Origin: Eopsaltria australis
Taxonomy: Eukaryota; Chordata; Aves; Passeriformes; Petroicidae
Assembly: GCA_034509425.1 (NCBI GenBank)
Contig: JAVTVJ010001836.1
Span: 203,923-267,922 of the forward strand
Direction: 5' to 3'
Length of the DNA: 64,000 nt
Shown here in pieces: positions 10,039-54,600 of this stretch. The position numbers were made by a program, and so were the translations under genes. The notes beneath the pieces were generated by a model that saw only the letters and a list, made by a program, of their open reading frames with translations, did not search any database and had not been told where the DNA came from. Within the stretch, counting starts at the first letter, position 1. Each line of letters begins with the position of its first letter.

Positions 10039-13000
10039 ATGTCCGCGCGCGCGGGGTCGCGGCTGCTGCTGGCGGGAACCGCGCGGCGACACCGGGTGCG
10101 CTCTGGGACACCGGGACCCCAACCCCGGGACACCGGGACCCTCTGACCCCCGGGACCCCAACCCCAACCCCGGGACACTGACCCCAACCCCGGCCCCGAG
10201 CCCCTCAGTGACACCGGGTGCGCTCTGGGACACCGGGACACCGGGACCCCAACCCCGGGACACCGGGACCCCAACCCCAACCCCGGGACACTGACCCCAA
10301 CCCCGGCCCCGAGCCCCTCAGTGACACCGGGTGCGCTCCGGGATACCGGGACACGGGGACACGGGGACCCTCTGACCCCCGGGACCCCAACCCCAACCCC
10401 GGGACACTGACCCCAACCCCGGCCCCGAGCCCCTCAGTGACACCGGGTGTGCTCCGGTACACCGGGACCCCAACCCCGACACCGGGACCCTCTGACCCCC
10501 GGGACACTGACCCCAACACCGGGACACCGGGACACGGGGACCCTCTGACCCCCGGGACCCCAACCCCAACCCCGGGACACTGACCCAACCCCAGCCCCGG
10601 CACCGAGCCCCTCAGTGACACGGTGCGCTCCGGACACCGGGACCCCAACCCCGGGACACTGACCCCAACACCGGGACCCCAACCCCAATCCCGGGACACT
10701 GACCCCAGCCCCGGCACCGAGCCCCTCAGTGACACCGGGTGCGCTCTGGGACACCGGGACCCCGACCCCAACCCCGGGACACTGACCCCAACCCCGGGAC
10801 ACCGGGATCCCAACCCCAACCCCTCAGTGACAGCGGGTGCGCTCGGGACCCCCGGACCCCTTCCCCCGGCCCCGCTGCCCCGAGGGCGGCCCGGTGAGCC
10901 CCGGTGACCCCCGGTGATCCCCGTCCGCAGGTGTCCGGGCCGGACCCCGAGCGCCTCCGGCTCTTCCAGCGGCTGCGGGCGGCGGCGGAGCGGCGGGACG
11001 GGCCCGGGGATGGGGCTGGGGCCGGGGCCGGGGCCGGGGGCGGCCGCCTCCCGCCGGGGACCCCGATCCGCATCGCGCTGCCCGGCGGGCGCCGCCTGCC
11101 CGGCCGGGCCCTGCAAACCACCCCGTTCCAGGTGGCCACGGAGCTCGGGTACGGCCCGCGGTGTCCCCAGGGTGTCCTCAGGGTCCCCGCAGTGTCCTAG
11201 CAAGGTTCCCGGGCCCCTCAAGGTGTCCCCACAAGGTCTGCAGTATCCTCAATGTCCCCGTAGTGTCCCCGTGACCCCCAGAGTCCCCACGAGGTTCGTG
11301 GGGTTCTTGTTGTGTCCCCGCGGTCCCCACAGAGTCCCCGTAGGGTTTTTGGGTCCCCGCAGTGTCTCCGCGGGGTCTCTGGTGTCCCCAAGGGTCCCGG
11401 TGTCCCTGCAGGGCGGAGGCGGCGCTGGTGGCCCGGGTGAACGGGGCCCTGCAGGACCTGGACCGGCCGCTGGAATGCGACACCGACCTGGAGCTGCTCG
11501 ACTTCTCCACGCCCGAGGGGCGGGAGGTGAGCCCGGGGCCTGGGGTGCGGGAGCCGCGCCCCGCCGCCCTCACAGCCCGTGTCCCCCATGTCCCCCGTGT
11601 CCCCCCAGGCTTTCTGGCGCTCCAGCGCCTGCGTCTTGGGGGCGGTGGCAGAGCAGTTTTTCGGGGCGACGCTTTGCAGCACCCGGGCCACCGAGGACGG
11701 CTTCTTCTGCGACGTGCACATGGGCAGCAGGTAGGGCGGGGCCGTCGCGGTGCCGCGGGGTCCCCGGCGTGTCCCCGGCGTGTCCCCAGCGTGTCCCCAT
11801 GCCCCCAGGACGGTGCAGAGTGCGGAGCTGCCGGCGCTGGAGGAGGCCTGTGCCGCGTTCGCCCGTGCCCGGCACCGCTTCGAGCGCCTCGAGGCCACCC
11901 GCCAGCAGCTGGCTGAGCTGCTCAAGGTGCCACCCCCTCCCAGAGTGTCCCTTCCCCATCTCAGCATGGGGCGTGGGGGGCCAGCCTGGGGACACTGGGA
12001 CCCTCCTGGTTGGGATCATCAACCAGGGTGATGCTCATCGGGACCGGTGTCACCGCCTTGGTCCCCCCCCAGTGCGGTGCCACTTCCCCCTCGGTGTCAC
12101 CCCTCTCATGTCACCGAGCCCACTGTCACCCACCTCATTGTTGTCCCTCCTCAGCACAACTCCTTCCAGCTGGAGCGGCTCGAGGAGGTGACGTCCCCTA
12201 TGGCCACAGTCTACAGGTGAGCACGGGGGACACGGGAGGGCTGTGGGTCACCACGGCTGTCCCCACATCCATCCCTTCATCCCTCAGGTGCGGCCCCCTG
12301 CTCCAGCTCTGCCGCGGGCCCCTGCTGCGGCACACGGGGCTGATCAGAGCCCTGCGTGTGCTCACGGTGGGTGTGGGTGTGGGTGGGGGTCCCTGGTGCC
12401 TCACCCCACTGACATTCCCCTATACAGGAGGTGCTGGGTGGGGGTCCCTGCTGCCCCTGACCCCACTGACCCCCCCCGTGCCCGCAGAGCTCGGCCGCGC
12501 TGTGGGGGGGCACTGGGGGCCGGTCACTCCAGCGCGTGGCCGCCGTGGCCTTTCCCAGCTCCCGGGACCTGGAGCAGTGGGAGCGGGCGCAGGAGGAGGC
12601 GGCTCAGCGGGATCACCGCCGCATCGGGAAGGTGAGCCCTGCCAGGGGCCAGGGGTCCCTCACAGCCACGGGGACCCCCCGGTAACGCCCTCCCCACTAC
12701 AGGAGCAGGAGCTCTTCTTCTTCCACAAGTTCAGCCCTGGCAGCTGCTTCTTCCTGCCCCGCGGCGCCCACGTCTACAACGCCCTCGTGGAGTTTATCCG
12801 GGTGCGGCTTCCCCTGACCCCAAACATCTCCCTGTTACATCACCCAGACCCCACTGCACCCCGTCCCCACCACAGCCGGGCACTGCTGTGCCCCCCATGA
12901 CACCCAGGCCCTGCCTGTGCCCCCCACAGACCCCACTGCACCCCATCCCCTATGCCCACCGTGCCCACCATCCCTCACCCACAGTTCCTCCCCAGTTCCT

Positions 13001-51600: not shown

Positions 51601-54600
51601 ATGGTTACGCGTCGTACGTGAAGGCGTGGGAGCTGTACCCAGTCTGCCGGCCACGTGAGTGACCCCTGTCCCTCCTGGCCACGTGAGTGACCCCTGTCCC
51701 TCCTGGCCACGTGAGTGACCCCTGTCCCTCCTGGCCACGTGAGTCACCCCTGTCCCTCCTGGCCTGCGGAGGCTTTGGGGCTTTGGAAGAGCCTGGCTCT
51801 AAAAATGGGTGTGTCCCTTTTTGTGCTGAGCCTGAAGACATCTGCAATCCTGATTTATTGCCAGGGTGGGTTCAGGGTGCCCCACCACCAGCATTCCTGC
51901 CCTCGGGATCACCCCATGGTTGAGCTCATGTAAAAATTCACCTGGGATATCCTTAGAAAAAAACAACTCAATGCTCTCTCTGTTTTGTCCTCTTCCCTTT
52001 CTCCCACGTGTCCCTCCCCAAACAGTGAAAAAAGCCTGGGAAGACATTGAGGATGTTTCCTGTCGGGATTTCATTGAGGAATACATCACTGCCTACCCCA
52101 ACCGGCCCATGGTGCTGCTGAAGAACGGGCAGCTGATCAAAACTGAGTGGGAAGGGACCTGGTGGAAATCCAGAGTGGAGGAAGTGGATGGAAGTCTGGT
52201 CAAAATCCTTTTCCTGGTAGGAATTTCCCCCCTCCCGTTAGGATTAAATTTGAGGCTGGGGATCTGATCAGCTCCGTTTTCCTTGCTAATCATGGAAATA
52301 CTGAGGTTGGAAGAACCTCTGAGATCTTGGAGTCTAAGGCCCTGAGCCATGTGCCCAAGTGCCACATCCACAGGGCTTTTGGGCAATTCCAGGGACAGTG
52401 ACTCCAGCCTGCCGGGGCCTGGACACCCTTCCCATGCAGAAGTTTCCCTAATACCCAATTAGAGATTCCAGCATTAATTATTGCGTGGTTCTGCTGCCTC
52501 TCAACACTCATTGCCGTCTCCTCGTGCTCTCTCTGTGTCTCACCTCAGGAAGCTCTTGGAACTGTGAACGTTTCCATCTCGCTCTCGCAGGAGGACAAAC
52601 GTTGTGAGTGGATTTACCGAGGCTCCACGCGCCTCGAGCCCATGTTCAGCATGAAAACTTCCACAGCTTCCACCCAGGAAAAGAAGCAAAGTGGGCAAAC
52701 CAGGACCCGTCCCAACGTTGGTTGGTGGCACCTTTTGATTTCACTTAGATCTTGGGATTTAGCTGGAGGTGGTTTGGGTTTGGTGGGTTTTTTGGCAGAA
52801 CTCCTGGAGATTTCAGATTTCCAGGTTTTGGGGTTTTTTTTTCCTTCTGACAGATTTCAGGTTTCCGGGTCTCAGATTTCAGATTTCAGGGTCTTTTCCC
52901 CTGGCACAGGAGATTTAGATTTCCAGGGTGTTTCTCCTCTGGGACAGGACATTTAGATTTCCAGTTGTATTTCTCTCCTGGAATAATGCCAGAAAACCAA
53001 ACTGCACTTGGGTGAAGTGACCAGGATTTCTGGGGGAGTTGCTGTGCTCTGAGCTCGGCGATGATCCCAAACGGTGATCCCAAATCCCTCGGTTTTGGTT
53101 CCTTCCAGGCACAAGTTGGTGTTTTGGGGCCTGTACAGCCAGCTTTGGATAACACTGGGGATTCTTCCTGTTGACTCTGGCTTTTCACCTTCCCCACCAG
53201 GTGCTGTGAGGAGCAAGGGCCCTGTGGTGCAGTACACCCAGGATTTAGGAGGAGCTGCTCCCCAGTACAAGGCTCCGGAGCAGCCCCCAGCTGCCCGTCC
53301 TGCGTCTCCCCAGCCTGCAGAGATGGAGTAAGTACCAGAGCCACTTCCAGCACCTTCCACCTCCCTGCTTCTCTCCAGCGCTCAGCTCTCCCAGGCACCA
53401 CCTTCTCTCTGCAGAGGAATCCTCAGGTGCAGGTTTCCTCCATGGCTTTAGTCGTGATTTTGGGGGAAAACTCTTTCCTAGAGCTGCTGGATGAATAACT
53501 GGGGGCGGGAGCTGAGAGCCAGCACTCCCCGAGCCAAGCGCTGCTCCTCAGGGCTAAAGCTTCGCACTCGCCTTTCCGAACTGGGCCTTTGCTCCTTCTC
53601 TTCCCGAAATCTGAATTGCTCCCTCGTGTCACGATCCAGGCGCTGGCCCCCGGCTGCCTTGTGTCCCTCCACCTGGACTGACCTGCTCGCCGGCCTCGCT
53701 GGGAGTTCGGGATCAGTGGTCGGTCCCGGTGGGCACGGAGCAATCCACGCTGCCCGGGGCCCAAGGGGGACATTCCCGGAGCCGCAGGCTGAAGGAGGCC
53801 TGGAGGAAGGAGGAGCTCGGCTTGGTGATGAAGGGAGCGTGTTGGAGGACACCAGGGAACTTGGGAATGTGCTGGGGGTCCTTTTAGGGGAGGGAGAGGC
53901 TCTCCCAGCTCATTTTTGCCAGCACTGTGGATTCCCCATCCGGATTTACGGCCGCCTGGCCCCGTGCCAGCACGTCTTCTGCTGTGACTGTGCCCTGCTG
54001 GTGGGGCACGAGGGAGGCAGGGCCTGTCCCAGCTGTGAGCAGCCCGTGCAGGAGGTCAACCTTTACACCCCCCAGGCTCTCCAGGTGTAGCAGCGGCTCA
54101 AAGCCCACCTGCCCCAGCCGGGGGGCTCCCCTGCCTGCAGCAGTGCAATATAACCCAGTGCAGCCCTGGAAAGGCTCCCTCTGTGCTGGTCTGACCACGG
54201 TTTGGGAGTGGAAGCCACAGCAACATCACCTTTTCCATAACAACAAGGAGATGCTGAAGGAGGTCGTGGAATGCAGGGCGGGGCCCCCAGCCCTGCAGCC
54301 CCCACGTGCAGGGACGGGCCCGGGACCGCGGACGCTGGAGCTGCAGCCCCGTCCGTCCTCACCGAGCCCTCTCCCATCCACGCCTTGCAGGGCTTGCCAG
54401 CAATCTTTTGCCTCTCCCCACAGAGGGCTTGGCTTTAGGATGTGGTTTTTGTGCAGCTCCTTCCCTGCCCCTAAATCCGAACTGCTCCTGGGCGGCCTGG
54501 CCGTGTCCATGTCCCTGCTGGTCCCAGGGATTCTGCGGGGTTCAAACACTTCCATTCTGATAATTTCTGATTATTAAAACTAAGAACAGTCTCCTCACTC

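Follow-up and report, generated by a model that had tools for sequence, protein, structure and literature searches.

Tandem arrays that take in the splice donor in four introns of a GC-rich stretch of the Eopsaltria australis genome

Chicken introns can hold imperfect tandem blocks, termed sequence stuttering, and some of these blocks take in the edge of an exon together with the splice donor or acceptor there (Hron et al. 2026, PMC12954441). According to the main text of that paper, a screen found 236 introns in 115 genes; 190 of these introns lie on dot chromosomes, and the copied exon stretch sits no further than 1 base from the exon border in over 90% of cases. The same text reports slightly raised intron variability on chicken chromosome 25 and names extensive length variation between individuals as a trait of stuttering. 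In humans, a minisatellite gives multiple splice donor sites in the interferon-induced gene 6-16, or IFI6 (Turri et al. 1995), where downstream repeat units serve as donors (PMC4526556), and in GC-rich chicken genes introns have been described as consisting of tandem repeats that carry quadruplex motifs (Beauclair et al. 2019, PMC6792250). Here we describe four tandem arrays that open at splice donors, in TARS2 intron 1, ARNT intron 17, SETDB1 intron 1 and SETDB1 intron 8, within a stretch of 64,000 nucleotides from the passerine Eopsaltria australis (assembly GCA_034509425.1, contig JAVTVJ010001836.1, positions 203,923 to 267,922 of the forward strand; the window below). With a probability of roughly 70%, we read them as local sequence stuttering that happened to take in the donor, the donor copies being passengers.

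As far as the main text of PMC12954441 describes stuttering, the four arrays share with it imperfect local intronic tandem blocks, some including an exon edge and splice site, in GC-rich bird genes whose exons stay intact; here too the blocks measure tens to hundreds of bases and are confined to the intron. They differ in that the exon part is at most 10 bp, under the 20-bp floor of that screen. With the IFI6 minisatellite they share repeat units that act as donors or resemble them beside an exon, and with the introns of PMC6792250 they share tandem-repeat composition within GC-rich genes; the donor as first unit is not treated in the accessible text of the latter. The main text of PMC12954441 mentions neither TARS2, ARNT nor SETDB1, and among the papers listed by a literature search no further one used the stuttering terms. 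Literature on C. elegans minisatellites, on assembly errors and on fish myostatin had, in its accessible parts, no bearing on donor arrays. An earlier note on this DNA had thought the feature novel, a view overtaken by the repeats that copy exon edge and splice site in chicken introns (PMC12954441) and by the IFI6 donor minisatellite (Turri et al. 1995).

Anatomy of the arrays at the exon-intron junction

Arrays were detected with Tandem Repeats Finder (TRF) and by direct reading. All four arrays are confirmed, with coordinates that shift slightly from those of the earlier note:

10086..10850, + strand: TARS2 intron 1 array, from the last 10 exon bases; donor 10096, intron 10096-10930
28776..29436, - strand: ARNT intron 17 array, from the last 3 exon bases; donor 29433, intron 29433-28516
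47509..48318, + strand: SETDB1 intron 1 array; donor 47512 (of an inferred non-coding exon), intron 47512-48620
51649..51764, + strand: SETDB1 intron 8 array, from the last 6 exon bases; donor 51655, intron 51655-52025

Each array opens at its donor, 3-10 bp into the exon (distance from the exon edge 0 to within 10 bp, with units of about 22, 28, 49 and 113 bp). The TARS2 unit is a higher-order repeat of about 113 bp with 20-bp subunits, and the ARNT units of 19 and 22 bp carry CAG|GTGGGTGAG. In SETDB1 intron 1 a 49-bp unit is overlaid by a nested 198-bp duplication, the 198-bp period showing 97% matches, and in SETDB1 intron 8 a 28-bp unit recurs in about 4.1 copies with 98% matches. The youngest copies clearly lie beside the donor in SETDB1 intron 1 only, and as a general rule this pattern was rejected, being clear in one array out of four.

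Gene models were built by tblastn and spliced alignment to human proteins. Spliced protein alignment fixes donors 10096, 29433 (- strand) and 51655, with the frame continuing into the next exon; from its position and the human gene structure, we infer that donor 47512 belongs to non-coding exon 1 of SETDB1. Single-exon matches to solved structures back the identity of SETDB1, ARNT and threonyl-tRNA synthetase, and Pfam backs that of ECM1. In chicken these genes probably lie on chromosome 25. From 96 proposed junction rows (TARS2 19, ARNT 21, SETDB1 25, RPRD2 15, CERS2 1, ECM1 15), 70 introns were curated: two TARS2 pairs and one SETDB1 pair were each merged into one intron, rows were dropped in ARNT (1), SETDB1 (6), RPRD2 (8) and ECM1 (11), and three introns, two in ECM1 plus SETDB1 intron 1, were set by eye. 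Approximately 21-26 kb, 39.8-47.4 kb and 61-63.3 kb lie outside the intron annotation, and the count of 70 excludes the CERS2 intron with the array at its acceptor, which runs off the window.

How much of the junction belongs to the unit differs among the arrays. The final 10 bases of the exon were set against the final 10 of each unit, with 69 other exon ends as control. The TARS2 exon end matched at 9 of 10 positions, 8 of them contiguous, and that of SETDB1 intron 8 at 8 of 10, 6 contiguous; none of the 69 other ends equalled either. For SETDB1 intron 1 the match was 7 of 10 with 3 contiguous (2/69 other ends match as many and 4/69 run as far), and for ARNT 5 of 10 with 3 contiguous, values equalled by 19/69 and 24/69 other ends. 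Exon bases, and with them the exon edge and splice site that stuttering can involve, are thus clearly part of the unit in two of the four arrays, TARS2 intron 1 and SETDB1 intron 8. Exon involvement is weak in SETDB1 intron 1, and the ARNT match is not distinguishable from ordinary donor consensus. The claim that the junction itself forms the first unit therefore stands on the intron side for all four arrays, and on the exon side for these two.

The four arrays share no similarity that blastn could detect with E values up to 0.01, and both strands are represented, as the earlier note had seen. A single spreading element was rejected for this lack of detected similarity, and a recurrent local process, which the note had preferred, fits better. 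TARS2 and SETDB1 intron 1 arrays show weak matches to other arrays of the window; as expected, no relatives were found in viral and prokaryote contigs. Elsewhere in the window, arrays in two introns of ECM1 are related to each other and oppositely oriented (16744-16965 and 18829-18999; 84.6% identity over 65 bp on the minus strand, E 6e-17).

Base composition is likewise not shared. On the coding strand two arrays are G-rich and two C-rich, and quadruplex motifs on coding and template strand number 1 and 6, 8 and 0, 8 and 0, and 0 and 0 in the four arrays. A G-rich coding strand as the common trigger was rejected on this base bias.

Donor copies and their predicted use

Donor-like sites were scored on a weight table, with cut-offs of at least 4 and at least 7 and with the authentic donor counted. 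As in the IFI6 minisatellite, donor-like sequence recurs in the array units: sites scoring at least 4 number 7 in TARS2, 56 in ARNT, 14 in SETDB1 intron 1 and 4 in SETDB1 intron 8. Coding-strand sites scoring at least 7 number 0, 53, 11 and 4 respectively, 68 in total. In ARNT intron 17, 25 downstream sites score at least as high as the authentic donor; the authentic TARS2 donor is weak (5.4). Copies are thus present in all four arrays; in TARS2 the donor recurs each 98-176 bp and not in each 20-bp subunit. The array donors look derived from the authentic donor, because the six other strong genic arrays of the window have no coding-strand sites scoring at least 7. Across 23,316 bp of other intron, outside the ten listed arrays, 28 such sites lie on the coding strand versus 52 on the template strand; strong decoys therefore look disfavoured there.

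The copies are poor candidates for back-up donors. Reading from exon into intron in TARS2, ARNT and SETDB1 intron 8 meets an in-frame stop ahead of the first copy. The downstream donors that we translated (6 in TARS2, 10 of 55 in ARNT and 3 in SETDB1 intron 8) all give the same early stop, as do the remaining ARNT donors because the stop precedes the first copy. SETDB1 intron 1 lies 5' of the coding region, and the stop analysis covers the three coding cases. In these, splicing at a copy is predicted to cut the protein short; the back-up role is rejected, and the earlier description of the donors as redundant is not supported. Because the stop comes first, the only roles left to the copies would be those of decoys or poison sites. 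This sets them apart from IFI6, whose downstream units are reported as used in mRNA; here such use would truncate the product in three of four introns, and the fourth lies before the coding region.

We also ranked the conservation of the donor window within the unit. It is the best-kept window in ARNT (rank 1/22), and ranks 14/49 in SETDB1 intron 1, 45/116 in TARS2 and 20/28 in SETDB1 intron 8. Selection on the donor copies was rejected as a general account, since three of the four arrays show no such conservation.

Donor preference and the origin of the arrays

Whether donors attract arrays depends on the null model. In a coverage null, the donor was treated as any base of its intron across the 70 curated introns. 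Four of the 70 donors lie in arrays, against expectations of 7.32, 5.42 and 4.58 with minimum TRF scores of 50, 80 and 110, so coverage gives no donor excess (P of at least 4 is 0.986, 0.899 and 0.789). No acceptor of the 70 is covered, far under the coverage expectation (P at most 0.0004). A 24-base junction test, counting copies within 120 bp, found 3/70 donors, 0/70 acceptors and 244/2513 internal points; it missed TARS2 because the period there is too long. Within 13 bp of a junction, 5 of 26 arrays end at an acceptor and 6 of 26 start at a donor, with 2.76 expected for each (P 0.12 and 0.042).

Some arrays reach exon edges while copying no donor:

17958..18219, + strand: ECM1 array, starting at +5 of donor 17954; units without donor
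63817..64000, - strand: CERS2 intron array, reaching the acceptor via a diverged unit; last intron base 63808; cut by the window end

The ECM1 stretch 17954-18219 is thus an exon-abutting array that copies no splice site. For the diverged CERS2 unit at the acceptor, 4 of 500 shuffles align equally well. Short arrays that end within 13 bp of acceptors occur in TARS2 and ECM1 (10890-10923, 11322-11398, 11576-11605, 11760-11798 and 19597-19623); some of these five are pyrimidine-rich and may double as the polypyrimidine tract. Within 45939-46579, a further 31-bp tandem array stops just before the ATG of a small cortexin-family open reading frame (46406-46579, Pfam Cortexin).

Local stuttering with the donor as passenger accounts best for these observations. 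Neighbouring introns hold arrays of differing sequence; arrays reach exon edges without donor copying, as in ECM1, in CERS2 and in the five of 26 that end near an acceptor; donors are covered no more often than the 4.58-7.32 expected and acceptors not at all; a single array has its donor stretch as the best-kept part of the unit; the other strong genic arrays lack strong coding-strand donor-like sites; and the same anatomy is described for chicken in the main text of PMC12954441. On this reading, introns of this GC-rich stretch would grow through repeated local tandem duplication, and in four of them the duplicated segment would have taken in the donor. The donor could be carried along because the first, 5'-most copy still defines the exon, and such duplications would be tolerated for that reason. 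A donor signal of about 9 bases would fit within one unit; acceptors need a longer tract, which selection may keep clear of arrays, as it may the exons. The donor copies would then be passengers, at most decoys. Candidates for the copying step are slippage and template switching, both in structured GC-rich DNA, and unequal meiotic repair.

Several results weigh against this reading. Under a position null, in which each array is grown from a seed placed randomly in the rest of its intron, the donor is touched by 4/26, 4/13 and 4/9 arrays compared with 1.38, 0.71 and 0.53 expected (P = 0.042, 0.0037 and 0.0009, values that are optimistic because the window was singled out for this feature), and with the ECM1 array included, 5 of the 9 strong arrays begin within 5 bp of the donor (P 0.0002). 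The related ECM1 arrays in opposite orientation are unexplained by a pure local origin. No exon part reaches the 20-bp minimum of the published screen. An imitation of that screen (minimum exon copy 20 bp, minimum BLASTn bit score 42.1, neighbouring intron) gave 1151 matches of any kind for 65 exons; none within the same gene reached 20 bp, and none reached 42.1 bits. We therefore file the four arrays under the broad term sequence stuttering and not under the screened exon-stuttering class.

The position result is what would be expected if G-rich donor-proximal DNA, R-loops, co-transcriptional splicing or short repeats (GTGAG words) made the donor a duplication hot spot, and the finding that none of the 9 strong arrays ends within 13 bp of an acceptor points the same way. 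Donors would then seed many more array births than their share of sequence predicts. The resulting class of donor-seeded introns would have an exon part under the 20-bp screen, and within them the spliceosome would have to select the foremost donor from as many as dozens that equal or surpass it. We consider this unlikely. There is no coverage excess, and the P values are optimistic. The TARS2 array start was set by hand for the main null tests: TRF places it at +20, so that TRF boundaries alone miss TARS2 and leave 3 of 27, 14 and 10 arrays touching a donor (P 0.14, 0.022 and 0.0077). Compared directly, 4/70 donors and 0/70 acceptors differ with P 0.12, and a G-rich coding-strand trigger is not common to the arrays. 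The evidence on donor specificity is thus split, with no excess by coverage and an excess by array position.

Less probable still is a selected function, in which the copies would be retained as decoy donors or for U1 binding and would modulate splicing, transcript decay or premature polyadenylation. The best-kept donor columns of the ARNT unit agree with such a function, as do the 68 strong coding-strand sites set against the 28 coding and 52 template sites of other intron, and downstream IFI6 units are reported to serve as donors (PMC4526556). The ARNT count, however, is helped by the 3-bp unit length difference outside the donor, the other three arrays lack donor-column conservation, and use of a copy is predicted to truncate the protein in the three introns read. 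An assembly artefact, with repeats collapsed or inflated in GC-rich DNA, appears the most improbable of these accounts. The 198-bp period of SETDB1 intron 1 with its 97% matches would suit it, and chicken GC-rich repeat introns are hard to sequence (PMC6792250); the units are nevertheless imperfect, the arrays differ in sequence, and raw nanopore reads are reported to confirm the repeat structure of PHF8 introns (PMC12954441). The presence of the arrays is probably correct even if their copy number is not.

Read as local stuttering with the donor carried along, the four introns would add, to an instability described only recently, a set of junction copies that escape its screen. ARNT intron 17, where 25 sites as good as or better than the true donor stand directly behind it, is a natural test of donor choice.

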